Shown here: in pieces, positions 16,591-30,667 of the stretch
Numbering within the stretch: position 1 is the stretch's first letter
Layout of the letters: every line of letters begins with the position of its first letter
Source: an uncultured Methanobrevibacter sp.
Lineage (GTDB): Archaea > Methanobacteriota > Methanobacteria > Methanobacteriales > Methanobacteriaceae
NCBI GenBank assembly: GCA_900320515.1
Contig: ONSJ01000001.1
Span: 1-64,000, forward strand
DNA: 64,000 nt
Direction: 5' to 3'
Translations under genes and position numbers: made by a program
The notes under the pieces: model-generated
Database searches by the model: none
Told to the model about the DNA's origin: nothing
The model's input: the letters and a program-made list of their open reading frames with translations, nothing else

Positions 16591-17391
16591 ATGTCTGAGT
16601 TAAAATATATGGATTTATCCTTGGATGAGATTCTAAAAAATCTTCAAATGTGCAAATCAGTTGTGGCAAACCAGGAAGAGGCTATCTGTAAGTTTAGAGA
16701 TGTCATTTTAACAGCTTCAAACAAGCGTGTGGTGTCCGAAAGAAAAACTACAATATTTCTTGCAGGCGCCGGCAGATCAGGTTTTGTTGCAAAATCATTT
16801 GCAATGAGATTGATGCATTTAGGATTTTATGTATATGTATTCAATGAAACAATAGCTCCTCCAGTCAAGGATGGGGACATAATTATCATTATTTCAAAAT
16901 CCGGTAAATCCAACTCTATAACCCAAATCGTTGAAGATTCCAAAATTGACAATGTCAAGTTTTTAGCTGTATGCGGCAATACAAAAAGTGACCTTGCCCA
17001 AAAGGCTGATGCAAGGATTGTTATTGATTCCCTTCCTCAAACTTTAGTAAGACTTGAGGATTATGATGTTAAAGAGTTTATGGAAACTTTGCCTGGCGCT
17101 TTAATAAACTTTGAAAGTGATGAAAGTGTTAGAAGTAAACTTGAAGCGCTTCCTAAAAAAGCAGCAGATTTAAGTGATAACAAACTGTGGAAGGATATTG
17201 AAGATTTGCCTAGAGAAATTAGGGGAATCAGTAATATCTATCGTCCATTGGAATTGATTTTAATGGGAACTGCCTTTGAAATTTCCGCTTTAGTATTGCT
17301 TGATGCATTGGTTGCCGAATTAATGCAAAGTTTAAACCTGCGTGAAAAAGACTTAAAAGCTTTTCATGATGTGTTAAGTAGTTCAATTTAA
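16591..17391 (+). CDS. hxlB: SIS-domain protein, 6-phospho-3-hexuloisomerase-like, with an insertion
   Basis: A 266-residue sugar-isomerase-fold protein. The SIS core is clear: FLAGAGRSGFVAKSFAMRLM at about residues 55-75 and DIIIIISKSGKSNSI at about 96-110. The end, NLREKDLKAFHDVL, matches the family. Phosphohexuloisomerases convert hexulose-6-phosphate to fructose-6-phosphate and serve ribose-phosphate supply in archaea. Typical members have about 180-200 residues; this one holds an extra segment of roughly 70 between the SIS halves (about residues 145-215). Whether it keeps the usual activity is unclear. It is 29 bases upstream of the FHA gene, perhaps one transcript. Confidence 0.75.
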   Translation: MSELKYMDLSLDEILKNLQMCKSVVANQEEAICKFRDVILTASNKRVVSERKTTIFLAGAGRSGFVAKSFAMRLMHLGFYVYVFNETIAPPVKDGDIIIIISKSGKSNSITQIVEDSKIDNVKFLAVCGNTKSDLAQKADARIVIDSLPQTLVRLEDYDVKEFMETLPGALINFESDESVRSKLEALPKKAADLSDNKLWKDIEDLPREIRGISNIYRPLELILMGTAFEISALVLLDALVAELMQSLNLREKDLKAFHDVLSSSI

Positions 17392-17420: not shown

Positions 17421-18215
17421 ATGGATGATTCAAAGACAGTTATTCTTGAGAAGGAAGATTCAAGAATTCTATCAACTAAATTAGCGGCTGTTAATAATAA
17501 TGTCAGATTTTCAATTCTGGAAATCTTAAGGGATTTTGAAAGAGTAAACAAAACAAGTGAGGGCACATTTAAAAAAGAGCCATTGTATTCCCGTGAAATC
17601 AATTCAATTCTTTTAAACAATTACAACATTAATATTACTACTCAAATGTTGGGCCAACACTTGAAGCAGCTTGTCGAATCAGACATGATTGAAGAGCTAA
17701 GTGTTAAAAAAGAGGTTCCTAATAAAATAGGCCGCAGAAGTGTAAAAGGATTTACATTAAAGGAAGATGCATTCGATGAACTTTTTTTAGATGTGAGTTT
17801 CCTGTCCGATGAGCTTCTTACATTTTTCGATTTATATAAATCCAATCAAAGATTTTCCGATGGCGAACATTGCGTTTTAACTATTTTCAATGGAGAGGAT
17901 AAGGGTAAAACATTTAAGGTTCACAAGGATGAGACAATCTTGATTGGAAGAAAAGCTAATTTTAATGCTAATGACTTAGCTTCATTTACCATACTTTTAG
18001 ATAATAGCTATTCTACAGTTTCCAATGTTGGCAAACCCCATTTAAAGTTATTCCATAAGGATGACGGATGGTATATATTGGATGAATGCAGTTCCAATGG
18101 AACATACATTGCCGATAGAAAAGTCCCAACAGGAATTGAAACAAAGCTTAAGGCAAATTCATTTTTGAAATTATCTAGAGGTAATGGCGGAGCAGTCATT
18201 TATTGTTCATTTTAA
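17421..18215 (+). CDS. Winged-helix plus FHA-domain regulator
   Basis: A 264-residue protein. Residues 1-20 form an unstructured N-terminus with TVILEKED at 6-13. Residues 25-120 look like a winged-helix DNA-binding domain (VRFSILEILRDFERV, then ITTQMLGQHLKQLVESDMIEEL and a basic GRRSVKGFTL wing). Residues 150-264 form a forkhead-associated domain: LIGRKANF (GR 176-177), a later Ser and His in SNVGKPHLKL, and CSSNGTYI (N226, G227). FHA domains bind phosphothreonine peptides. The neighbours are a Ser/Thr kinase and a phosphatase, so it is probably a phosphorylation-responsive regulator. ATG 17421 behind AGAAGG. Confidence 0.82.
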   Translation: MDDSKTVILEKEDSRILSTKLAAVNNNVRFSILEILRDFERVNKTSEGTFKKEPLYSREINSILLNNYNINITTQMLGQHLKQLVESDMIEELSVKKEVPNKIGRRSVKGFTLKEDAFDELFLDVSFLSDELLTFFDLYKSNQRFSDGEHCVLTIFNGEDKGKTFKVHKDETILIGRKANFNANDLASFTILLDNSYSTVSNVGKPHLKLFHKDDGWYILDECSSNGTYIADRKVPTGIETKLKANSFLKLSRGNGGAVIYCSF

Positions 18216-18234
18216 TTAGATTTTAAATCTAATT
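18214..18234. repeat. 21-bp perfect palindrome at the FHA/kinase junction
   Basis: AATTAGATTT (18214-18223) and AAATCTAATT (18225-18234) are exact inverted arms around one T. The element overlaps the last base pairs of the FHA-gene stop and ends one base before the kinase ribosome-binding site GGTGG (18236-18240). It could be an operator for the winged-helix protein, or an RNA hairpin that hides the kinase ribosome-binding site. Confidence 0.6.
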
Positions 18235-18244
18235 GGTGGTTTGA

Positions 18245-21200
18245 GTGGACTTTGATGGGGCAAAACAGCTAATTGAAGAATTTTTTAATGGCAAATTTGA
18301 AGTTAAAAAATTTCTTGGAGAGGGATCATTTGCAAAGGTTTATTTGGTAAACCATAACTATTTAGATACTTTAATGGCTATGAAAATCATTAAGGAGCCA
18401 TTGAGTCTGTCAACCAATAAAAAAGAAGTTTTTCATGAAGTCACACTTGCATGTCAGCTAAGGCATGAAAATATCATAAGCATTTATGATGCCGCCGAAA
18501 TAACTAATTTTGAAGATGGAAAAAACCATGCTTACTTTGTAATGGAATATGTCTCAGGAGGGGATTTGGAGCAGTTTTTAAATTCATATGCTGAGATTAA
18601 CAGGTTCATGCCAATTGGAGTCAGTTTGGATTTAATAAAACAGATTTTAAATGGATTAAACACTCTTCACTCAGCAAATCCTCCAATAATCCATCGTGAT
18701 TTAAAACCCAATAATGTTTTGCTCAGTTTCAATGAATGCGGCGACATTATCACTAAAATATCCGATTTTGGTTTTGCAAAAGAGATTACCACTACCATTT
18801 CAGACATTGATATAGCAGGCACACGGCCATATATGGCTCCTGAAATCTTCAGTAAAAATGTATCGGCCAGAAGTGATATTTATGCTGTCGGCGTCATGTT
18901 TTATCAGTTGCTGACAAATATGTATCCGTATGATGTTGGAAAATATACTAATGAAGAGCTGATTGATTTAAAGCCATGGTCTGATGAATTAAAACCTCCA
19001 AGCTATTATAATGGACATGTTTGTGAATTGTTGGATGAAATCGTTTTGAAATGTCTTGAATTCAATCCGGATAAACGGTATGGTGATGCAAATGAGCTGC
19101 TTTTGGATGTAAATAATGCCATTGATGAGTATGAGGCAGTTCGGGACTTATCCCCAACCAGTGCCGGTTATGATTCTGATGATGATTATCGTGAATACAT
19201 TGTTAACGATTCAATAGAGGGGGCCTTTAGGCTTGCTAAATGCGAAAATAAACTTGATGACGCCATTGAAATATTGGAAAATGAAGTTTTGAAGGATTAT
19301 GAGGTTCGTAAATTTTACTCTGAAACACTCAGAATTTGGAAATCAAAACGCCCTGATTTGAAATTAATCTCTAAGGCGTTCACCGTTAATCTTAAAGGGA
19401 GGAATTATCATTTGTCTTGCAGCTTGTTGGCAGAAGCAATGGCATATAATCCCTCAATTAAAAGGAAATATTCTCATTATGTCGATTTATGGGAGATTTT
19501 TATAGATTTGGAAAGACAGGGGAGTCTGTTTAAAAGTGTGGAGATGCTTGAAAAGTTGATGGAATCAAATGTTGAGATTCAAGAACTTTATAGGAATATT
19601 CTCCCAACGCTTAAGACATGCTCGGTTGATGAAATTGTTATAGAGGCAATCCGTTTGGTAGGTTTGAATGATTTGTCTGAAGGCGCTAATCTGATGGAGT
19701 TTGCAGTTATTTTGGATGCTGACATTAGGAAAAATTATTCATATAAACTGTCACTATGGAAACAGAATATGGTGATGCATTTCACGCAATCCGATGAAAT
19801 TAAAGCTGATGCAATAGATTATGCCATAGATTTGGGAACAACAGACTCTGTGATATCCTATTATAACGATGGAAATCCTGTTGTCATTAAAAATCACAGA
19901 ACAGGAGAAGAATTCACTCCATCTGCAGTGTTGGTTGATGAAAATGATGATGTGGAAGTTGGTAAAAATGCAAAAGATGCTCTATTGGTGAACACGAATA
20001 ATGCAGTTAGCGAATTTAAGCATAACATGGGCTTTTCAATTCCGTTTAAGTTTGAAAATTCATCCAGGATGATGTTTCCGGAAGAACTGTCTGCCGAGGT
20101 CTTAAAAGATTTAAGAGTGTCAGTTTATGATGAAACAGGGGTAAATATTGAACATGCAGTAATCTGCGTTCCTGCAAATTCCAATCCAATCAAGATAAGG
20201 GCGGTTAATGATGCTGCCGAACTTGCAGGATTCAGATCACATAGTCTTGTATTGGAGCCGATTGCAGTTGGTCTTGCTTATGGCCTTCAAAGGACTAATG
20301 GAATTTGGATGATTTATGATTTGGGCGGAGGAACATTCAATGTAAGCATAATTGCAAATAGCAATGGGGAACTTGAAAAAATTGCAACCGACGGACTGGA
20401 TAATCTTGGCGGAAATTCATTTGATTGGAAGATTGTCAATGACCTTTTCAGACCTAAAATATCCAGCGATTTGAATCTGGATGATTTTAGAAGGGACAAT
20501 CCGAAATTTGTGGATGTTTTTGCAAAACTTAAGGATGCTGCCGAAAATGCTAAATTGGATTTAACCAAAACTGATAACACAGACATATGCGTCAATAATC
20601 TTTTTGATGGTTATGACTTTACATATAATTTAACCAGAGATGAGTTCAAGGAAATCATAGAGTCCTTGGTCAAATATACTTTTAATGTGTCAAGAAATCT
20701 GTTAGACCAGTGTCATCTGGATGATGGGGATATCGATAAGATTATTCTTGTTGGCGGTTCATCGCTCAGTCCAATCGTACAGGAATTCATACGGGATGAG
20801 TTTGATATTGAAATGGAATCGAGCATTAATCCGCTGACTGTAGTGTCCAAAGGTGGGGCAATTTATGCAGGAAATCTTGAAAAACCACATATCGACATTA
20901 AAAAGGAAGCATTATCAGTTCTTTTAGACCATAAAAATGGAATTTTAAGGGGAAAGGTATTTTCAAACGACTTGAAATCCTCATATTTGGGATATGATAT
21001 TGAAATTGAATCAATCAGAGTTCCTTTAAAAATTGACGGATGGTTTTATCTTAGAAATCCTCCCCGAAAGTATGGCATCAGGATTTATGAAAATGGTGAA
21101 TTGCGAGAGCTTGATGAGAAATCGCCTGGCTGTGTTGATGGGGAAATAATGAATATCCCATTTTTGAATGGGGAATTTGGCATAAAGAGTGATATTGATT

Positions 21201-21760
21201 TAAGGGAATTGATGAACCAATATTCAAATTTACTGAATGAAATCGAATATCTTAATGAATATTCATTAATAAATGAGTATGAGGTCCAAAAATATATCGA
21301 AACCCTGCTTGAGATAACTCAAAGGGATAAAATTGCACTAAACCATGCTAAAATTTACATTGATTATTTGGAATCCATTGTTGAAAAGGCAAAAGGGGAT
21401 TTGGAATATTCGATGCTTTTGAAAAATGTAGCCAAAAAGATTGAAATGGTAAAAAGCAAAAATCTGTTTGACATAGGGGATATTGGCAATGATTTGGAAA
21501 ATATGGATTTAAATGAACTTAAAGACATTCATGCTTCTTTGGTTGAAATATATGTGTCATTAAATAGAAACGATGTAATCACCAATTGCTTTTTTAATCT
21601 AAAGCTTGAAGGAATTTACACAAACAATGAAAAACTGGCAGACGAGTTAATTGAAAAAGCGCATGATGCATTAAATCTCAATGATTTTGAAGCTTTATTT
21701 GACATGGTCAATGCATTATTTGAGCTCGATGAACGTGAGGACAGTAGGGAGATTTTATGA
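18245..21760 (+). CDS. Ser/Thr protein kinase fused to an Hsp70-type domain
   Basis: A 1171-residue protein. The kinase domain covers residues 20-295: glycine loop LGEGSFAKVYLV (24-35), Lys47 in AMKII, Glu65 in the C-helix, HRDLKPNN (150-157), DFG (174-176), GTRPYMAPE (192-200). All catalytic residues are present. Residues 310-520 are helical, perhaps TPR-like. An Hsp70 ATPase domain follows from about 527: AIDLGTTDSV, VICVPANSNP (about 640), YDLGGGTFNV (692-701), and VGGSSLSPIVQEF (about 840). The C-terminal 270 residues hold a degenerate beta-rich part and long helices. GTG start at 18245 behind GGTGG. It ends in ATGA overlap with the next gene. Confidence 0.88.
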   Translation: MDFDGAKQLIEEFFNGKFEVKKFLGEGSFAKVYLVNHNYLDTLMAMKIIKEPLSLSTNKKEVFHEVTLACQLRHENIISIYDAAEITNFEDGKNHAYFVMEYVSGGDLEQFLNSYAEINRFMPIGVSLDLIKQILNGLNTLHSANPPIIHRDLKPNNVLLSFNECGDIITKISDFGFAKEITTTISDIDIAGTRPYMAPEIFSKNVSARSDIYAVGVMFYQLLTNMYPYDVGKYTNEELIDLKPWSDELKPPSYYNGHVCELLDEIVLKCLEFNPDKRYGDANELLLDVNNAIDEYEAVRDLSPTSAGYDSDDDYREYIVNDSIEGAFRLAKCENKLDDAIEILENEVLKDYEVRKFYSETLRIWKSKRPDLKLISKAFTVNLKGRNYHLSCSLLAEAMAYNPSIKRKYSHYVDLWEIFIDLERQGSLFKSVEMLEKLMESNVEIQELYRNILPTLKTCSVDEIVIEAIRLVGLNDLSEGANLMEFAVILDADIRKNYSYKLSLWKQNMVMHFTQSDEIKADAIDYAIDLGTTDSVISYYNDGNPVVIKNHRTGEEFTPSAVLVDENDDVEVGKNAKDALLVNTNNAVSEFKHNMGFSIPFKFENSSRMMFPEELSAEVLKDLRVSVYDETGVNIEHAVICVPANSNPIKIRAVNDAAELAGFRSHSLVLEPIAVGLAYGLQRTNGIWMIYDLGGGTFNVSIIANSNGELEKIATDGLDNLGGNSFDWKIVNDLFRPKISSDLNLDDFRRDNPKFVDVFAKLKDAAENAKLDLTKTDNTDICVNNLFDGYDFTYNLTRDEFKEIIESLVKYTFNVSRNLLDQCHLDDGDIDKIILVGGSSLSPIVQEFIRDEFDIEMESSINPLTVVSKGGAIYAGNLEKPHIDIKKEALSVLLDHKNGILRGKVFSNDLKSSYLGYDIEIESIRVPLKIDGWFYLRNPPRKYGIRIYENGELRELDEKSPGCVDGEIMNIPFLNGEFGIKSDIDLRELMNQYSNLLNEIEYLNEYSLINEYEVQKYIETLLEITQRDKIALNHAKIYIDYLESIVEKAKGDLEYSMLLKNVAKKIEMVKSKNLFDIGDIGNDLENMDLNELKDIHASLVEIYVSLNRNDVITNCFFNLKLEGIYTNNEKLADELIEKAHDALNLNDFEALFDMVNALFELDEREDSREIL

Positions 21761-21903
21761 AAAACCGGAATTCCATTGAACCGACAGTGATACTCAATAA
21801 AGAGGATGAGTGTGGATTTTTAGATTTTAATAATCCTGATGATTTATCACAAGTCATCAAGGCACTCAAAAAACTAATGAAAGAAGAGGGTTCTGATGTG
21901 TGA
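21757..21903 (+). CDS. 48-residue protein sharing an N-terminal motif with the FHA protein
   Basis: The ATG (21757) overlaps the kinase TGA, and the TGA (21901-21903) overlaps the phosphatase start (21896), so it is tightly coupled on both sides. The sequence begins MKNRNSIEPTVILNKED; residues 10-17 (TVILNKED) match residues 6-13 of the FHA protein (TVILEKED) at seven of eight positions. The rest, from FLDFNNPDDL on, is acidic then a lysine-rich helix. No known family. The overlap pattern and the shared motif argue that it is a real gene, likely a phosphorylated adaptor or substrate. Its threonine 10 fits an FHA-type pT-x-x-L site; that is inference. Confidence 0.68.
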   Translation: MKNRNSIEPTVILNKEDECGFLDFNNPDDLSQVIKALKKLMKEEGSDV

Positions 21904-22663
21904 TAGGTTAATTGAGTTGCCGAACCATGGTCGTCTGATTGTCGTAACTGATTTGCATGGCAATTTTGATGATTACGCTCATTATTTGAATTTGTGGGAT
22001 GAAACAGACCCTGATTTTCACATTGTCTTTTGTGGGGATTTGATTCATGGCCTTGATGAGGATACAGACGGGTCCGTTGAGATTCTTGACGATGCAATCG
22101 CCAGGTCAGAAAAATATTCCAATTTCCACACTTTGCTTGGAAATCATGAGTGGGCACATATCACAAAGAGGGAAATCTACAAAAATCAAAGGCCTTTGCT
22201 TTCGGGATTTGAAAATCTCATTTCATATAGGAAAGGATGCATTGAACCTCACCTCACAGATTATATCAAATTCTTTAAGACAATGCCCTATTTTGTCAAG
22301 ACTGCTAATGGAATGTTCATTTCTCATTCTGGACCTTCGGACAAGGTCAGATCAATTGAAATATTTAATGAGCTTATTGACAGCGGATATTCCTGTCCAA
22401 TTTTGCATGACTTTTTGTGGAATAGGCATGACCGAGCAACTGACTATACAAAAGATGATGTCGATAGTTTCCTTGATATTGTCGGCTCAAAAGTTATGGT
22501 TGTGGGCCACAGTCCGGTAGAGTCTTATAAGGTATTTGCAAACCAGATTATCATGTCTTCAAGCTTTGCCACAAAAGTAAAAACATATTTGGATATAGAT
22601 TTGGCAATGGAGATTGATGACATCAAAGACGTGCAGAAGCAGCTGAAGTTCATAATTGAATGA
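21896..22663 (+). CDS. PPP-family Ser/Thr protein phosphatase (metallophosphoesterase)
   Basis: A 255-residue phosphatase. The metal-binding motifs are in order: DLHGN (19-23), GDLIHG (47-52), GNHEW (82-86), later SHSGP (about 144) and VVGHSP (about 210). This is the PPP pattern, GDxHG-GDxxxxG-GNHE, in slightly altered form (DLHGN). It would remove phosphates placed by the kinase upstream. The ATG overlaps the preceding 48-residue gene by eight bases. It lacks a signal peptide, so is cytoplasmic. Dinucleoside polyphosphate hydrolases of the same fold cannot be excluded; the context favours a protein phosphatase. Confidence 0.85.
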   Translation: MCDRLIELPNHGRLIVVTDLHGNFDDYAHYLNLWDETDPDFHIVFCGDLIHGLDEDTDGSVEILDDAIARSEKYSNFHTLLGNHEWAHITKREIYKNQRPLLSGFENLISYRKGCIEPHLTDYIKFFKTMPYFVKTANGMFISHSGPSDKVRSIEIFNELIDSGYSCPILHDFLWNRHDRATDYTKDDVDSFLDIVGSKVMVVGHSPVESYKVFANQIIMSSSFATKVKTYLDIDLAMEIDDIKDVQKQLKFIIE

Positions 22664-22731
22664 TTCATTCAAAATCAATTGAAAATACTTATTTAAAAAA
22701 AGATTATAAAGTAATATAGGAGGTGTTAAAC

Positions 22732-24990
22732 ATGAGCGAAAACAACTTGAAGCCATATATCGATAATTTTTTTGATAGTTTAGTATTGTATGATGATAAA
22801 TACAATGGCCACAATTATAAAGGCCTTTTAAAGGCAGGCATTGATGTATTTTTAGAAACAGAGAATTCATATAATGCATATGAGATATACCAAACATTTT
22901 TCATGATCTATCAAATCACAGCAGAAGACAAGTCCGAAAAATCATCAGAGCAAAGCATTGTAAACGAACCTAACACCATTCTTGATTTGGTTAAGATAAT
23001 GAAGAAGTATGAAGAGAATACTGGGGATTTAATTGAAAGACAGAGGGACCATTTCATACACTCCGTAAATGTTTTCCTTTTGGGTCTTGCAGTTTATGCC
23101 CAAAATAAGAGCTACCGTGAAGCCTTTGAAACATACATTCTTAAAAGTCCATATAAAAAGTATTATAGGATTGGCAAAAAGTTATCCCATGAGGAATTTT
23201 TCTATCGCTGGGGAGTGGCATCACTGTTCCACGATATAGGATATCCTGTTGAAATTATAGGAAAGCAGTTGAAAAAGTTCATAAATGATGATGTCAAATC
23301 TATTTCAAGCACTTACGGTGCGGATACAGCAATTGACTTTAAGGATTTCAATGAATTTAACACCATTATAAAAATAGACCATGATTTCGCTGATGAATAC
23401 ACTAAAAATTATCCTGAAGCCAAATTTTTAAATCTGTTCAAGCCAACAGACATTATGGCCCATAAGATTGCAACCGATTTTTCAGATGTTAATGTAAACA
23501 AGGTCGCAAAGCACCTTGACGGTTTTGTAGATGTAATGGGTGAAAATGGATTTATAGACCATGGATTCTTCTCAGCAATTCTGGTTATGAACTCCTATGG
23601 TTATTTAATTCAGAAGTTTGCAAAAAAACACGACTTTTTCTTCTATCCGATAGTGGACAGTGCCACAGCCATTCTGCTTCATAACTATTATAGAAATGTG
23701 CTGCAAAAAAATCCGTTTAACTTGCCGGCACTTCATCCTTTACAAAGTCCTATTGCATTTCTGCTGATTTTATGTGATGAGCTTCAGGAATGGAACAGGC
23801 AACCTTTCGGAATTAAAGATAAGAAAAGAAGCCATGTGAATGATTTGAAATTGATGATTGATGATTCAAACATGGAAGTTGACTATATCGTTAAAAGCGG
23901 TTCAATGGGTCTTGGATTTTCCGAAGACAAAGAGGAACTGATTAATCATGTCCTTTCAATACATAGCATTTTTGATAGAAACTTCCTGATTTACACAAAT
24001 GTGCAGAAAGATGACAGCATCATGAGGGAAATCGTCAAATCAGAAATCCCGGCACCATCCACATTACTTAGAAATGTGGAAAAATTGGCGCTGGAAATAC
24101 ATAAGCAGTATATTGAAACCGCAACCAAGGAGTATAATGAGAAAAAGGATAAGGGTGAAATTGATGACGACGCCGAAAGGGACTTTAAAGAAAAAACCAA
24201 ACCTTTTGACCAATTGTCTTCACACCTTAAACTGGCCAACATTCGCCAGGCAAGGTCCATTCCTAAAAAATTGAACATGATTGGATGTGAACTTGCAGAT
24301 TTGTCCGATAAGCGTGAAGAAATAACCAAGTTTTCCGAAGAGGAAGTAATTGATCTGGCCATTTATGAGCATGATGAATGGTGTGAAGAAAAAATAGGTC
24401 AGGGATGGACTTATGGGGAAGTCAGGGATGATGATAATCTCATCCATGATTGCCTTGTGCCATGGGATGACCTCACACCTGAAGTGCAGCAATATGATAT
24501 TGACCCTGTTGAAAACATTCCTAATCTTGTTAAAAAAATTGATTTGAAGATTGTCAGAAGCAAAATCAGACTCCTGACCATTGAAATGCATAAGTTTTAC
24601 CAACAGAAAAATGGAGGAACAGATGACTTTGATGACCTGCCTGAGTATATTAAGTATTCAAACTATAAGCAGGCTAATTTCCTGGTTAAAATATTGGGTG
24701 AACTTGGATATGATGTGGTTGATTCCCAATCAAAAGGTGAGGCAATTGAATATTTCGATGAGGATGCACTGGAATATTTGGCCAAAAGGGAACATAATGC
24801 ATGGTATAAACTTAAAATCAACTTGGGTTGGAGATTTGCACCTGTTCGTGATGAAAACAGAAAACTAAATCCTAACTTAGTGGAATGGGACGCTTTGAAT
24901 GTTAAAAACAAGGATGACAATAAGAGAACCTTCAAAAACTTGCCTCAAATGTGTAAGAATGTAGATTTAAAGATTGTTAGGAATAGTTAA
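22732..24990 (+). CDS. HD-domain protein with two C-terminal RyR domains, paralogue 1
   Basis: A 752-residue protein. An HD-type phosphohydrolase core lies at about residues 100-350: DHFIHSVNV (His110), SLFHDIGYP (His167-Asp168), DHGFFSA (His277), LLHNYY (His317), CDELQEW (Asp349). Residues 498-610 and 640-750 form two units, each a helical segment with an N..QA pattern followed by a RyR domain (YEHDEWCEEKIGQGWTYG at 546-562; REHNAWYKLKINLGW at 686-700). HD proteins cleave phosphomonoesters or cyclic nucleotides; RyR domains are named from ryanodine receptors and occur in prokaryotic signalling proteins. ATG 22732 follows a full AGGAGGTG; the upstream GTG is part of that site. Confidence 0.8.
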   Translation: MSENNLKPYIDNFFDSLVLYDDKYNGHNYKGLLKAGIDVFLETENSYNAYEIYQTFFMIYQITAEDKSEKSSEQSIVNEPNTILDLVKIMKKYEENTGDLIERQRDHFIHSVNVFLLGLAVYAQNKSYREAFETYILKSPYKKYYRIGKKLSHEEFFYRWGVASLFHDIGYPVEIIGKQLKKFINDDVKSISSTYGADTAIDFKDFNEFNTIIKIDHDFADEYTKNYPEAKFLNLFKPTDIMAHKIATDFSDVNVNKVAKHLDGFVDVMGENGFIDHGFFSAILVMNSYGYLIQKFAKKHDFFFYPIVDSATAILLHNYYRNVLQKNPFNLPALHPLQSPIAFLLILCDELQEWNRQPFGIKDKKRSHVNDLKLMIDDSNMEVDYIVKSGSMGLGFSEDKEELINHVLSIHSIFDRNFLIYTNVQKDDSIMREIVKSEIPAPSTLLRNVEKLALEIHKQYIETATKEYNEKKDKGEIDDDAERDFKEKTKPFDQLSSHLKLANIRQARSIPKKLNMIGCELADLSDKREEITKFSEEEVIDLAIYEHDEWCEEKIGQGWTYGEVRDDDNLIHDCLVPWDDLTPEVQQYDIDPVENIPNLVKKIDLKIVRSKIRLLTIEMHKFYQQKNGGTDDFDDLPEYIKYSNYKQANFLVKILGELGYDVVDSQSKGEAIEYFDEDALEYLAKREHNAWYKLKINLGWRFAPVRDENRKLNPNLVEWDALNVKNKDDNKRTFKNLPQMCKNVDLKIVRNS

Positions 24991-25015
24991 CATTTTTTCC
25001 TTCCTTTTTTCAAGG

Positions 25016-25034
25016 ATTTAAATCAATACTTAAA
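25016..25034 (+). promoter_or_regulatory. Shared upstream element, copy B
   Basis: ATTTAAATCAATACTTAAA, 46 bases before the ATG of the second HD-RyR gene. It matches the element before the FHA gene at 18 of 19 positions. The first HD-RyR gene has a looser form, AAATCAATTGAAAATACTTA, near 22683-22702. ATTTAAAT or CTTAAA could serve as the TATA box. Confidence 0.35.
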
Positions 25035-25080
25035 CTTATTTAATATTAATTCAATATAACTAGTATATATAGGTGGGATT

Positions 25081-27513
25081 ATGGCCGAGGATAATACTAA
25101 AACTAAAAAGTCTAATTTAAGTCAATATGTCGAAAATTTCTTTAATATGATTGAACTTTATGACGATAAAATCGCATTTTATGACAATCAGGATAATCTA
25201 CATTATCATGATTATAAAGGTATTTTAAAAGCAGCTATTGATGTTTTTTTAGAATATGAATCATCCTACACAGCTTATGAAGTTTATGAAACCTTTTTGA
25301 TGATTTATCAAATCACTCCTGAAGATAAAAGTTCAGTCAATGAAAGCAGTTCTAATAGCCTTATAAGTGAACCCAACACTCTTCTAGATTTAGTTGATAT
25401 AATGAGATTGTATGAGGAAAAGACAGGGGATTTAATTGATAGACAGAGGGACCATTTCATTCATTCAGTCAATGTATTCATTTTAGGTTTGGCCATTTAT
25501 GCCCAAAATAAAAACTATCGTAACAGCTTTGAGAAGTATATCCTCAAAAATAAGAATTATACTAAATATTATAGGGATGAAAACAACAACTTTTCCCATG
25601 AGGAATTTCTATACCGCTGGGGTGTTGCATCCCTGTTCCATGATATAGGTTATCCTTTTGAAATCATCGGAAAACAGTTAAATAAAGTCATTGATGATGG
25701 GATTAAATCCATTTCTGTTAGTTATGATGTTGATGCACATTTTGATTTCGCTGATTTCAATGAATTCAACTCCATTACAAAGATATATCCTTATGATTAT
25801 GCCGAAGGGTTTAGAAGCAAGTATACCCGTACAAAGGTTCTGGATTTATTCAAACCTACCGATATCATGGCCCATAAGATTGCTTTGGACTTCCAGTTCG
25901 ATGATGATTATTTCAAAAGACTTGTTAAGCATTTGAATAGGTTTGTCAAGTATATGAATGAGATTGGCTTTATAGACCACGGATATTTCTCAGCGATTCT
26001 TGTATTGAACTCCTATGGTAAATTAATTCAAAAATATGTTGAAAAGAATAAGGATTTCTTCTTTTATCCGATTGTAGACAGTGCTACAGCTATCTTATTG
26101 CATAATTATTACAATAAAACGCTACAAGGTGATTCATTTAAGCTTGGCAGGATGGATCCTGATGATTCTCCTATTGCATATCTATTAATATTCTGTGATG
26201 AGCTTCAGGAATGGAATAGGCGACCATATGGTATTTTGGACAAACAGAAAAATCATGTAAATGACTTTAAAGTCCATATTAATGACACATGCTTCAATAT
26301 TAGATACATTTTAAAAAATGGTTCTATGGGTCTCGGATTTGAAGAGGATAAGGAAAACTTCATCAAAAATGTCTTAAATGTTAGAAAGATATTTGAAGGA
26401 TTTACAATCATCCCTGATGTGGATTTAGATGATATTCAAAGGGATATTTTGATGTCTGATATTCAGGCTCCGGATGTGCTGATGAGGAATATCGAAAAGC
26501 TGGCCGTTGAAGTAAATAGGCAATACAATGAAACTCAAAAAGCAAAGCTTGAAGAGGCCGAAAGTGAAAAAGATGAGGAAAAGATTCGAAAATACACCAA
26601 AAAAGTTAAAGATACCGAGAACTTTGAGGGTTTAAGTTCAAGCTTCAAGATGTCAAATATCCGTCAAGCCAAGTCCATTCCAAAAAAATTAAGCATGATC
26701 GGTTGTGAGATAGCTCACAAAACTGATGAAGAAAAGGCGGATAAAAGAGACTTTAAGGTCAAATTGAATGAAATTGTAGCGGAACTGGAAAGGACAGATG
26801 ATAACTATGATAGTCGTCAGGAAATCCTTGAGCGTTCAGGCAAGGTTGTAAGAATCTTGAGATTTAGTGAGGATGATGTTGACGATTTGGCTGTCTATGA
26901 ACATGAAAGCTGGTGTGAAGAAAGAAAAGGAACCGGCTGGGTTTTTAATGATGTAGATGACTCTAAAAATAAGCGCAGTAGCAGTTTAGTTGAATGGGAT
27001 GCGCTTGATGAGTATACAAAAGAGTTGGATAAGGAAGCCATTAGAAATATTCCTAACCTTTTGGATAAGATAGGCTTAAAGGTCATCAGAAGCAGGCTTC
27101 GCTCATTGACTTATAAAATGAATCAGTTTTATGAAAACGGTAAGCTTGATGGTGATTCCAGTGGTGAATTGGAATTTAATAATTTGGATAAGCATATCAA
27201 GTTTTGCAATTTTAAGCAAGCGGACCACTTGGTTAAAATATTAAAACATAAGGGATATGAATTGGTGCCTTTGAATGATTCAGAGGATCCTATCGAGAAG
27301 TTTTCCAAAGAGGAAATCGAACATTTCGCTAAAATGATGCATGAGAGCTGGTATAAGCTTAAGCTTAATTTGGATAGAACCGGCGGTAAGAATTTCGTGG
27401 AATGGAAGGATCTTAATGAAAATGTTAAGAAAGCGAACAGGAATACTTTCAAGTATCTTCCGGAAATGTGTGCGGATGAGTTCGTTGGATTAAAAATAGT
27501 TAAAAATGATTAA
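25081..27513 (+). CDS. HD-domain protein with two C-terminal RyR domains, paralogue 2
   Basis: An 810-residue paralogue of the preceding gene, similar along its whole length. HD motifs: RDHFIHSVNV, SLFHDIGYP, DHGYFSA, LLHNYY, CDELQEW. RyR unit one: YEHESWCEERKGTGWVF; unit two: MMHESWYKLKLNLDR, a shortened copy that lacks part of the loop after the tryptophan. Differences: a charged insertion of about 50 residues before the first RyR (with EIVAELERTDDNYD) and a longer linker. Adjacent full-length paralogues often form hetero-oligomers. Its own promoter region is likely (91-base gap). ATG at 25081 behind AGGTGGGAT. Confidence 0.8.
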   Translation: MAEDNTKTKKSNLSQYVENFFNMIELYDDKIAFYDNQDNLHYHDYKGILKAAIDVFLEYESSYTAYEVYETFLMIYQITPEDKSSVNESSSNSLISEPNTLLDLVDIMRLYEEKTGDLIDRQRDHFIHSVNVFILGLAIYAQNKNYRNSFEKYILKNKNYTKYYRDENNNFSHEEFLYRWGVASLFHDIGYPFEIIGKQLNKVIDDGIKSISVSYDVDAHFDFADFNEFNSITKIYPYDYAEGFRSKYTRTKVLDLFKPTDIMAHKIALDFQFDDDYFKRLVKHLNRFVKYMNEIGFIDHGYFSAILVLNSYGKLIQKYVEKNKDFFFYPIVDSATAILLHNYYNKTLQGDSFKLGRMDPDDSPIAYLLIFCDELQEWNRRPYGILDKQKNHVNDFKVHINDTCFNIRYILKNGSMGLGFEEDKENFIKNVLNVRKIFEGFTIIPDVDLDDIQRDILMSDIQAPDVLMRNIEKLAVEVNRQYNETQKAKLEEAESEKDEEKIRKYTKKVKDTENFEGLSSSFKMSNIRQAKSIPKKLSMIGCEIAHKTDEEKADKRDFKVKLNEIVAELERTDDNYDSRQEILERSGKVVRILRFSEDDVDDLAVYEHESWCEERKGTGWVFNDVDDSKNKRSSSLVEWDALDEYTKELDKEAIRNIPNLLDKIGLKVIRSRLRSLTYKMNQFYENGKLDGDSSGELEFNNLDKHIKFCNFKQADHLVKILKHKGYELVPLNDSEDPIEKFSKEEIEHFAKMMHESWYKLKLNLDRTGGKNFVEWKDLNENVKKANRNTFKYLPEMCADEFVGLKIVKND

Positions 27514-27676: not shown

Positions 27677-28456
27677 GTGGATATAGTCAATCAACCAATT
27701 TTTCAATTTTCAGTAGAATTAATTATTTTCATTGTTTTAACTGCTGTTGGTGTATTTATTTTGGATAAAATTAGGAACAGCGACAACAGATATCTCAATC
27801 CTCAGGAATTTTTGCCGAAAGATGAGATTCATACGTTAAAACAGGTATTTTATCTTATTTTGATGAGCCTTTGTTTTGTCACTGTTTTATATACATTAAT
27901 CTCAACAAAGTCAGATATACCTTATCTTTCATTTTTTGATATATGTTTATCATTATATATTGCAATAACATTGGATAAGTCATCTCTAAAGAATAAGATT
28001 TTACTGATAATAATAGTTCCGTTCGGATCAATGAGTTATTTCTTTTTTGGATATACATTGGTCGGTTTAGTTGACTTTATTCATGTTCCGGTATTTTTGT
28101 ACTTTGTCAAGTACTATTATAACAAATTCAATTATTATACGGAATCAAATGGTTTGTCCCTGGCAATACTTTTGCTGTTTGTCATTATATTATTCAGTTT
28201 TTTCCTAACTCAAGTGACTGAAGGTAAAAATCCTTTGGATGCCCTGGTAATGGTTTCCAATGCATTCACAAGTAATGGATATGCCGTTTTAGGCAACTCA
28301 ATTCCTGGAAAAATCAATAGCCTATTCCTTGTTTGGGGAGGTTATGTTATTTCTGGTGTAGCCACAGCTTCTTTAACCGCAGCTATCTTGATTAAGCATT
28401 TCAACAAAAGGGTTGAGAAGCTGGAAAGAATAATTGAAGAGGGAAGTGATGAATGA
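27677..28456 (+). CDS. Potassium-channel-like membrane protein, subunit 1
   Basis: A 259-residue membrane protein. Hydrophobic helices lie at about 11-30, 57-77, 84-98, 107-127, 129-146, 160-180 and 215-240. Between the last two is a re-entrant pore-like segment: NPLDALVMVSNAFTSNGYAVLG (residues 185-206 in part). It lines up with the potassium-channel filter region (TxGYG) but reads TSNGYAVLG (198-206). A short charged cytoplasmic tail follows. GTG start at 27677 behind GGTGA. It overlaps a paralogue by four bases, so a heteromeric channel is likely. Ion selectivity cannot be told; the filter is not canonical. Confidence 0.65.
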   Translation: MDIVNQPIFQFSVELIIFIVLTAVGVFILDKIRNSDNRYLNPQEFLPKDEIHTLKQVFYLILMSLCFVTVLYTLISTKSDIPYLSFFDICLSLYIAITLDKSSLKNKILLIIIVPFGSMSYFFFGYTLVGLVDFIHVPVFLYFVKYYYNKFNYYTESNGLSLAILLLFVIILFSFFLTQVTEGKNPLDALVMVSNAFTSNGYAVLGNSIPGKINSLFLVWGGYVISGVATASLTAAILIKHFNKRVEKLERIIEEGSDE

Positions 28457-29253
28457 TGGATGAGATGATAATGACATTATTGATTATTGTGGGCATGGTT
28501 TTACTTTCTATAGTAATCTTTTCCGTTCTGGTTCAGATTTGCAAGTTTGTCTTAATAAAACTAAAATCATCTGAGTCACTTAAAAATTCAAGACTTTTCA
28601 ATCCTCTGGAATATTTCCCTGAAGAGGAGATATCGACCATAAGACAGGTCTTTTATTTGGTAATTATAGTCCTGATTGTTGTTGATATCCTGTATTCAGT
28701 TGTCGGATGGCATGAAAATTTGATAATCTTTTCTGTCTTTGATATTCTTTTATCCCTGCTATTTGCGATAAATGTTAAGTGGGGTTCTTTAAAAAATAAG
28801 ATACTGTTATTCGGATTAATCCCGTTGGGTTCACTGGGTGTGCTGTATTTGGGAGAATATTATGTTATAATTGATGCAATACATTTAATAACCCTTGCAT
28901 ATTTCATTAAGGTCTACTTTAACAAATTCGTCGAATATACTGAGACCAACAGTTTAGGAATAACAATAATACTGTTGTTTTCAATTGTTTTCATTAGTTT
29001 CTTATTCACTATTGTTGTTGAAGATGTTTCTCCTCTTGATTCATTGAACATGGTTTCCAATGCATTTACAAGTAATGGTTATACCGTTTTAGGAAAAACT
29101 GGGCTGGGTAAAGCCGATGCAATATTTTTGGTTTGGAGCGGTTTTTTACTGTCCTGTGTAGGTACGGCCACTTTGACAGTTTCCCTTATAGTGAAACATG
29201 TTGACAGAAAATTTGATAAGTTGGAAGATTTGGCCAAGAAAAAGAAAAATTAG
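28453..29253 (+). CDS. Potassium-channel-like membrane protein, subunit 2
   Basis: A 266-residue paralogue of the preceding protein. The same layout: several membrane helices, RQVFYLVIIVLIVVDILY after an N-terminal helix, then LDSLNMVSNAFTSNGYTVLG (residues 195-214 in part) as pore segment, and a final helix with a basic tail (VKHVDRKFDKLEDLAKKKKN). The filter-like TSNGYTVLG (206-214) is kept in both copies, so it is under selection. ATG 28453 overlaps the previous stop (ATGA). No RCK/TrkA domain is attached; gating may come from neighbouring HD-RyR proteins (inference). Confidence 0.65.
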   Translation: MMDEMIMTLLIIVGMVLLSIVIFSVLVQICKFVLIKLKSSESLKNSRLFNPLEYFPEEEISTIRQVFYLVIIVLIVVDILYSVVGWHENLIIFSVFDILLSLLFAINVKWGSLKNKILLFGLIPLGSLGVLYLGEYYVIIDAIHLITLAYFIKVYFNKFVEYTETNSLGITIILLFSIVFISFLFTIVVEDVSPLDSLNMVSNAFTSNGYTVLGKTGLGKADAIFLVWSGFLLSCVGTATLTVSLIVKHVDRKFDKLEDLAKKKKN

Positions 29254-29299
29254 TTCTTTTTAATAATCCTTAAATATTTTTTTCCATATACTATTAGTG

Positions 29300-30667
29300 A
29301 TGCAGGCTAACGATAATATCGAATCAATCAGAGGAAATCCCCGCAGTGCCATTAACAAATTGGCGTTTCCTACAATATTTTCACTGCTTTTAATGTTTTT
29401 AAACAATCTTATTGATAGTTTTTGGGTCTCAGGCATCAATGCAGATGCTCTTGCCGATTTAGGTTTTATTTCGCCATTGTATCTTGTGATAATTGGCATG
29501 GGCAGTGGTGTGGGTGCAGGTGCCAATTCATTGATTTCAAGATATGTCGGTGCTCAAAGGATTGATGATGCAAATAATGCAGTTATGCACTCAATAATTA
29601 TAACAGTTGTCGTTTCACTTATAGTTTTAATGATAGGTATTTTCTTTTTAGATGATTTGGTGATATTGTTGGGTGCAGGTAGCGTCAGCACATATTGCCT
29701 AAGTTATGGCCAAATCATCTTTTTGTTGAATATTGTCTTTCTGGCACCCAATGTTGCCGCAAGCATCTTTAGGGCGGAAGGTGATGTGGCACGTGCGACA
29801 AACCCATTGATCTTGACATCTGTATTTAACATGATTCTGGATCCTGTTATGATATACGGACTTGATTTGGGCATATTCGGAGCGGGACTTGCGACAGTTT
29901 TGGCATCATTTTTAGGATTCCTTCTGATGTTTTACTGGATATATGTTAAAAGAGACACATTTTTCCAGTTCAAATTCTCAAATTACAAGCGTGAATTGGG
30001 GATATATAAGGAAATCCTTGTGGTTTCACTTCCGGCCTCAACAGAAGAGATAATATTTGCCCTGGTTGCAATTATCCTTAACTATCTTATTATAGTGACT
30101 GCAGGAGTTGCTGAAGTGGCTGCATTCACCATCGCATGGAGATTCATAACAATCGCATTCATTCCAGCTATGGCAATAGGAATTGCGACAATAACCGTTT
30201 CGGGAATAGCTTATGGGGCAAAAAATTGGAAAAATTTCAATGAAACAATCAAATACTCGACATTGTTAGGTTTGGCGATTACAATTTCAATCTGTGCATT
30301 GTTTTTCATATTCGCATACCCTCTTTGCGATTTATTCAACATTCAGGCAGGCAGTCCCGCATTGGTGAGCCGTTCTGCGGAAATATTGAAGTTACTGGCG
30401 TTCTATAATTTTCTGATATCCTTGGGGGCAACTGCAGCCTATACCTATCAGGGTGTTGGCTCCGGTTTCAAGTCACTTGCAATAACAATTCTGCGGGAAC
30501 TGGTATTGAGCATTGCATTGGCCTATATTATGGGGATAACATTTAATATGGGCGTTTTTGGTGTGTATCTGGGAGCAATCATTGGAATGAATATGGGTTC
30601 AATTATAGGTTTTGTTTTTATTTGGATTTTTAATATGAAATTTAAAAAAAGAGTTTTTTCATCTTAA
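29300..30667 (+). CDS. MATE family efflux transporter
   Basis: A 455-residue multidrug and toxin extrusion family protein with about 12 membrane helices. Visible: the start NPRSAINKLAFPTIFSLLL, DSFWVSGINADALADLG, the second half LPASTEEIIFALVAIILNYL, and the late QGVGSGFKSLAIT loop. It probably exports cationic compounds in exchange for Na+ or H+. ATG 29300 directly follows an in-frame GTG. No ribosome-binding site is visible; a TATA-like TTAAATATT (29270-29278) would place the transcript start at the codon, so the mRNA may be leaderless. Confidence 0.9.
   Translation: MQANDNIESIRGNPRSAINKLAFPTIFSLLLMFLNNLIDSFWVSGINADALADLGFISPLYLVIIGMGSGVGAGANSLISRYVGAQRIDDANNAVMHSIIITVVVSLIVLMIGIFFLDDLVILLGAGSVSTYCLSYGQIIFLLNIVFLAPNVAASIFRAEGDVARATNPLILTSVFNMILDPVMIYGLDLGIFGAGLATVLASFLGFLLMFYWIYVKRDTFFQFKFSNYKRELGIYKEILVVSLPASTEEIIFALVAIILNYLIIVTAGVAEVAAFTIAWRFITIAFIPAMAIGIATITVSGIAYGAKNWKNFNETIKYSTLLGLAITISICALFFIFAYPLCDLFNIQAGSPALVSRSAEILKLLAFYNFLISLGATAAYTYQGVGSGFKSLAITILRELVLSIALAYIMGITFNMGVFGVYLGAIIGMNMGSIIGFVFIWIFNMKFKKRVFSS

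Follow-up and report, generated by a model that had tools for sequence, protein, structure and literature searches.

In Bdellovibrio the FHA-GGDEF protein DgcB (PDB 6hc0/6hc1) has its disordered N-terminal tail bound, around T14, by its own FHA domain; the residues at +2 and +3 are hydrophobic, and the one at +3 is key. Phosphorylation is proposed to switch the output domain there, and self-peptides are likewise bound by the FHA domains of GarA and OdhI (PMC6733907). According to the PDB record 3unn, the FHA domain of MDC1 binds its own phospho-Thr4 near the N-terminus. According to two reports, ArnB of Sulfolobus, once phosphorylated by the Hanks-type kinase ArnC, becomes a ligand of the ArnA FHA domain, and the PPP phosphatase PP2A acts on the ArnA-ArnB complex (PMC12852372, PMC7472852). 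In Mycobacterium tuberculosis a wHTH and an FHA domain are combined in one protein, EmbR, which is under the control of the Ser/Thr kinase PknH (PMC4601284). For methanogenic archaea few targets of Ser/Thr kinases or FHA domains are known. The genome paper of M. ruminantium makes no mention of FHA or Hsp70, a literature search found no paper joining Methanobrevibacter, the FHA domain and a protein kinase, and no description of the operon considered here was found in the literature.

The window, by which is meant the whole stretch of 64,000 nucleotides analysed, is from a Methanobacteriaceae genome, and the nearest named relatives of its FHA gene are from uncultured Methanobrevibacter of rumen and gut samples. 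On its + strand genes follow one another for a SIS protein, a wHTH-FHA protein, a kinase-Hsp70 fusion, a 48-aa protein, a PPP phosphatase and two RyR-domain proteins, and the span 17421-21903 takes in the kinase-Hsp70 gene as well as both of the proteins that carry the shared motif discussed below. The features are:

16591..17391, + strand: SIS-domain protein (6-phospho-3-hexuloisomerase-like), which adjoins upstream in most complete loci and is a candidate member of the switch
17421..18215, + strand: wHTH-FHA protein, 264 aa (tail 1-10; helical/winged-helix part ~11-144; FHA ~150-263)
17436..17450, + strand: Thr6 tail motif T-V-I-L-E (family consensus T-x-[IV]-[LIV]-D)
17949..18104, + strand: FHA phosphothreonine-pocket residues R177, S201, K205, H207, S224, N226, G227 and T228
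18245..21760, + strand: kinase-Hsp70 fusion, 1171 aa, GTG start (Pkinase 18-282; Hsp70 ATPase 528-879; C-terminal helical part)
21757..21903, + strand: 48-aa small protein, with 22 copies in 21 genomes
21784..21798, + strand: Thr10 motif T-V-I-L-N in the small protein
21896..22663, + strand: PPP/calcineurin-like metallophosphatase, 255 aa (Pfam Metallophos 5.9e-13)
22723..27513, + strand: two paralogous RyR-domain proteins, 755 and 810 aa (Pfam RyR 2.6e-29 and 3.3e-14)

The small-protein gene shares 4 nt (ATGA) at its start with the stop of the kinase-Hsp70 gene, and 8 nt at its end with the start of the phosphatase gene, which suggests coupled translation across the three genes. The RyR-protein genes are frequent downstream neighbours in the locus neighbourhoods compared, and their products are possibly the output or the sensor of the switch. 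Archaeal RyR domains beside a kinase operon are unusual; the tandem pair (22723-27513) has an HD-like motif (FHDIGYP) in its N-terminal half. Further on, at 27677-29300, membrane proteins are encoded in tandem that contain a stretch like that of a channel (TSNGYAVLG), and these recur downstream of the operon in other genomes.

The FHA protein begins M-D-D-S-K-T6-V-I-L-E-K-E-D13 and the small protein M-K-N-R-N-S-I-E-P-T10-V-I-L-N-K-E-D17. The initial annotation had singled out the agreement of TVILEKED (residues 6-13) with TVILNKED (residues 10-17) at seven of eight positions, with Leu at +3 in both; this is exactly what the proteins hold, and a hydrophobic +3 is kept in orthologues. Shuffling that preserved composition (20,000 trials) gave a 7/8 match 11 times anywhere in the pair and never (0/20,000) inside the first 20 residues of both, and the per-cell rate gives an expectation of 1.1e-5 N-terminal 7/8 matches for this pair. 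Only one other of the 1,596 gene pairs in the window has a 7/8 match inside both first 25 residues, and its members are true homologues, the match lying in a loop of two GTPases.

The further expectation, that the motif would be conserved in orthologues, was checked in both families and holds for the core T-x-Φ-Φ-[D/N]. It does not hold for the KED half, which was rejected as a functional part: the exact 8-mer is local, EKED is present only in the window and a near-identical relative, and in other species the FHA tail and the small protein agree at 4-5 residues. Judged from the alignments, the true common tag is T-x-Φ-Φ-[D/N] and ‘KED’ is a local coincidence. The two motifs are not identical, since the residues before the Thr are preferably basic in the small protein and acidic or neutral in the FHA tail, and +4 is Asn in the former and usually Asp in the latter. 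A scan of the neighbourhood proteins for further N-terminal T-x-Φ-Φ-[D/N] yielded none that recurs; orthologues of the kinase-Hsp70 and the phosphatase have no conserved T-x-Φ-Φ site, and the sites in the SIS and RyR proteins are all internal. The candidate FHA-ligand peptides are DDSKTVILEKED and SIEPTVILNKED.

Identification of the FHA domain comes from Pfam (FHA, 3.8e-6), from Foldseek matches to many FHA structures and from conserved pocket residues, and a match to an HxlR-like HTH is weak (E 0.007). The AlphaFold2 model (44 sequences) has a mean pLDDT of 83.6, with residues 1-10 at 47 and so predicted to be disordered. The closest solved folds by Foldseek are FHA domains, including those of ArnA, GarA, OdhI, EmbR and DgcB with its own phosphorylated N-terminal peptide; by PDB sequence profile the closest are CHK2 and ArnA, and GarA and OdhI chains gave no match in that search, their similarity being of fold only. 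FHA-protein matches are present in 37 of the 139 family genomes. Of 49 full-length proteins 36 bear the tag. Its first residue is Thr in 35 of them, and the remaining one, the first member of a tandem pair, has Ser; three of the 36 tails, TLIRN, TEILR and SAILG, were scored by a relaxed pattern. A hydrophobic residue is at +2 in 35/36 and at +3 in 35/36, with forms such as KTVILD, YTEIID and KTVIID, and outside the tag the tail varies in length and sequence across the family. Four synonymous codons are in use for the tail Thr, pointing to selection on the protein. The sequence features of an FHA self-peptide switch, a conserved Thr in a predicted-disordered N-terminal tail and a hydrophobic +3, are present.

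Presence of the tail goes with integrity of the pocket. R177, S201, K205, H207, S224, N226 and G227 are all intact in 36/36 tailed proteins vs 0/13 tailless ones, where at least one residue is changed, most often K205, N226, S201 or R177. With the strict tail pattern Txx[LIVFM][DNEG] the pocket is intact in 33/33 proteins with a tail and in 3/16 without, and the pocket reduced to R, S and N is intact in 2/13 tailless proteins. General divergence of the tailless proteins as the source of pocket loss is disfavoured, since their other FHA invariants are 92% conserved vs a mean of 67% for R177, S201, N226 and T228; in the five closest tailless paralogues N226 is 20% conserved. A tree built without the tail and pocket columns has four changes of each trait in full agreement, with two pairs on well supported branches. 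The independent events are few, about four with two well supported, which is fewer than a sign test needs for significance. The association, which bears indirectly on binding of the tail by its own FHA domain, is consistent evidence and not a significant test.

Expanded families of tailless wHTH-FHA paralogues with altered pockets lie away from kinases (L104, L106, L108-L110, L112, L113, L188, L189), mostly in the Methanosphaera-like genus g12. They are candidates for phospho-independent FHA regulators.

The 22 copies of the small protein come from a profile search over 152 genomes with acceptance at E below 1e-14. Thr10, Leu13 (+3) and Asn14 (+4) are invariant in 21/21 orthologues, as are Phe21 and Leu22, and Thr is present in all 22 copies. 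The Thr10 codon is ACA, ACT or ACG, five different codons serve for the +3 Leu, and pooled pN is 0.32 vs a pS of 0.70 (pN/pS ~0.45); synonymous variation together with pN below pS argues for selection on the protein. It has no family in Pfam, NCBIfam or PADLOC. AlphaFold2 places a helix at residues 27-45, toward the C-terminus, and the tag in a loose stretch ahead of it, a model of low weight with a mean pLDDT of 73; there is also a conserved FLD(F/L) stretch. Its gene is directly behind that for the fused kinase-Hsp70 in 21 of the 22 cases (two of the 21 are on contigs with the 3′ part of the kinase-Hsp70 alone, and for one the kinase-Hsp70 is read as two ORFs). The 22nd, in G088, follows a decayed kinase-Hsp70, and the FHA gene is also gone there. 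Outside fused-kinase loci the profile gave weak partial matches only in the 152 genomes, and loci in which separate genes encode the kinase and the Hsp70, or in which the kinase is without Hsp70, lack the small protein and still keep the FHA tail. The tail, then, does not need the small protein, and the small protein, to judge by this distribution, needs the fused kinase-Hsp70 gene.

Pfam matches to the fusion are strong (Pkinase 2.1e-50, HSP70 1.1e-70), the HSP70 match covering the ATPase part only. Across 19 fused orthologues there is conservation of the catalytic Lys, HRD and DFG that mark a Hanks-type Ser/Thr kinase, and of the Hsp70 nucleotide-site residues (one orthologue is gapped at the Lys and the glycine loop). 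The phosphatase has the PPP-type metal site, D/H/D/N/H, conserved in 18 relatives, and protein-phosphatase activity is predicted for it; several fused-kinase loci are without an adjacent phosphatase. TTxI/L is present in the activation loop of 13/19 kinases (window kinase region 18245-19090) and may possibly be a second docking site for the FHA domain. No claim of a defence system is made, the PADLOC matches being to many kinase models and along the kinase domain only.

A kinase gene is in the same locus, within ~3 kb, for 30/36 tailed vs 0/13 tailless FHA genes. Among the exceptions, G097 and G041 have a split kinase ~10 kb off, and L086 ends at a contig end with a kinase on another contig of its genome. 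Kinase codons 1-35 survive in G075 beside a truncated RyR gene, from which recent deletion of the kinase is deduced. G098 and G111, which are 99% and 77% complete, keep the FHA Thr with no Hanks-type kinase of this family detected, and so the tag is not strictly dependent on this kinase; the remaining Pfam kinase matches in these two genomes are ORFs of ~535-555 aa, presumably Bud32-type or ABC1-type proteins.

The deletion scar of G075 (L095:5490-5720) joins these codons to the middle of RyR1, from ~residue 277; what has been lost is the remainder of the kinase-Hsp70, together with the small protein, the phosphatase and a portion of RyR1. In a paralogous operon (L148-L153, in G041, G097, G091, G070, G094 and G056) the kinase (~540 aa) and the Hsp70 (~840 aa) are encoded separately, beside genes for a PPP phosphatase, for three proteins of unknown nature (~765, ~500 and ~270 aa) and, in most cases, for a TPR protein; a tagged small protein was not found in it. 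At L087, L090 and L094 of genus g9, the FHA gene and the split kinase and Hsp70 are followed by a gene for a large protein, of up to ~1,590 aa, that starts IFISSSFIDMHAERD and resembles NACHT/STAND-type proteins.

The reading to which we lean, with a confidence a little better than even, is that the operon is a kinase- and phosphatase-run phosphothreonine switch in which the FHA pocket reads both its own tail and the mark on the small protein. Precedent for reading of a self-peptide is strong, with DgcB, GarA and OdhI as examples. The kinase-Hsp70 would phosphorylate Thr6 of the wHTH-FHA tail and Thr10 of the small protein, and the PPP phosphatase would remove these phosphates. The pocket would read a pThr with hydrophobic +2 and +3, and two ligands would therefore be open to it: the regulator's tail, in cis or from another subunit, and the small protein once phosphorylated. 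As a dedicated subunit of the kinase-Hsp70, the small protein would dock on the FHA regulator through its phospho-tag, whereas its FLD(F/L) stretch and the helix at its C-terminus would probably dock on another surface, that of the kinase-Hsp70 being the likeliest. The DNA-binding or oligomeric state of the regulator would then depend on which ligand is bound. Phosphorylation of Thr6 and Thr10, FHA binding of both, competition between them, the direction of the switch and its effect on DNA binding are what we infer. A more far-reaching form of this reading, offered tentatively and with a probability well short of even, is that the 48-aa protein is a dedicated phospho-ligand copying the self-binding tail and that the pocket arbitrates between the tail and the kinase-bound microprotein; this would be an archaeal transcription switch whose Hsp70-fused kinase may sense the protein-folding state.

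The tag could alternatively be for the kinase only, both proteins being its substrates and the FHA domain engaging the activation loop of the kinase or the tail of the FHA protein itself, and not the small protein. Both proteins are indeed encoded with the kinase, the small one strictly linked to it, and TTxI/L in so many activation loops recalls PknB, which reportedly recruits GarA via its own activation loop. However, reading by the FHA domain is indicated by the hydrophobic residue retained at +3 and by the joint conservation of tail and pocket, and the motifs differ upstream of the Thr, where a kinase consensus is expected to be shared; we regard substrate tagging alone as unlikely, if deserving of some weight. 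Invariance of the Thr (22/22 small-protein copies and 35/36 tails), where Val, Ile or Ser would serve a strand, speaks against phosphorylation-independent docking, in which the Thr and three hydrophobic residues, as a short beta-strand or a hydrophobic peptide, would dock both proteins on one site of the kinase-Hsp70, for example in the manner of an Hsp70 ligand. Hsp70 ligands are often hydrophobic and then Lys, the motif is very hydrophobic with a Lys after it in the small protein, and that protein is found only with the Hsp70-fused kinase. Yet FHA proteins beside kinases without Hsp70 (L100-L102) keep the tail, and the fusion's Pfam Hsp70 match lacks all but the ATPase part, so that docking of this kind is improbable.

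Short hydrophobic motifs are common, and the 7/8 identity is limited to the species of the window, with 4-5 residues shared elsewhere, as would fit two unrelated conserved N-terminal segments that happen to be alike in this species. Such convergence is very improbable given an expectation of 1e-5 N-terminal matches for the pair and retention of the core in both families though small proteins are otherwise only ~40-60% identical among genomes.

The initial annotation had proposed that the kinase modifies Thr6 and Thr10 and that phosphorylation switches the FHA domain between self-binding and binding of the small protein. Its observation of the shared motif is confirmed and strengthened, and its interpretation is plausible and partly supported: the Thr is kept wherever the pocket is intact (with one Ser) and is invariant in the small protein, +3 is hydrophobic, the tail is predicted to be disordered and the kinase catalytic residues are intact, and the part that fell away is the unconserved KED. 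The operon brings together a kinase, candidate substrates with exact residues, a putative reader and a putative eraser in rumen and gut methanogens, and makes three sharp predictions: pThr6, pThr10 and one FHA pocket common to both. If the small protein competes with the tail of the regulator, it would be an FHA switch with its self-peptide on a separate microprotein, of which no report was found among the papers searched.

Among known systems, GarA and OdhI of actinobacteria, to which the annotation had likened the tail, would share with it an FHA domain that binds an N-terminal phosphothreonine of the same protein, and Ser/Thr kinase control. Their motif is of ETT type (ETT-S-V-F), however, and is absent from the FHA tail; the parallel is sound for the self-peptide, where it fits DgcB as well, and is an analogy and not membership. 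They are, moreover, small FHA-only metabolic regulators, whereas here a wHTH precedes the FHA domain. ArnA is a zinc-finger protein and ArnB a vWA protein, with no Hsp70 fusion and no shared tail motif reported in the accounts consulted, and neither a zinc-finger FHA protein nor a vWA partner was present among the proteins scanned here. EmbR has a BTA domain between its wHTH and FHA domains; the 264-aa protein, which has no Pfam match to BTAD or the OmpR type, has another kind of wHTH, a small partner and an Hsp70-fused kinase. MDC1 is a human DNA-damage scaffold and its context is unrelated. The likeness to DgcB lies in a Thr in a predicted-disordered N-terminal tail with hydrophobic +2 and +3; its output, however, is a bacterial diguanylate cyclase, in place of an archaeal winged helix, and no separate small protein with the tail motif is described in the account consulted (PMC6733907), whereas here there is one. 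By analogy with these, the system would be a variant of the FHA self-peptide switch and not a new kind of system. What sets it apart, as far as sequence can tell, is the same tag on a regulator and on a separate microprotein, together with a kinase fused to Hsp70.
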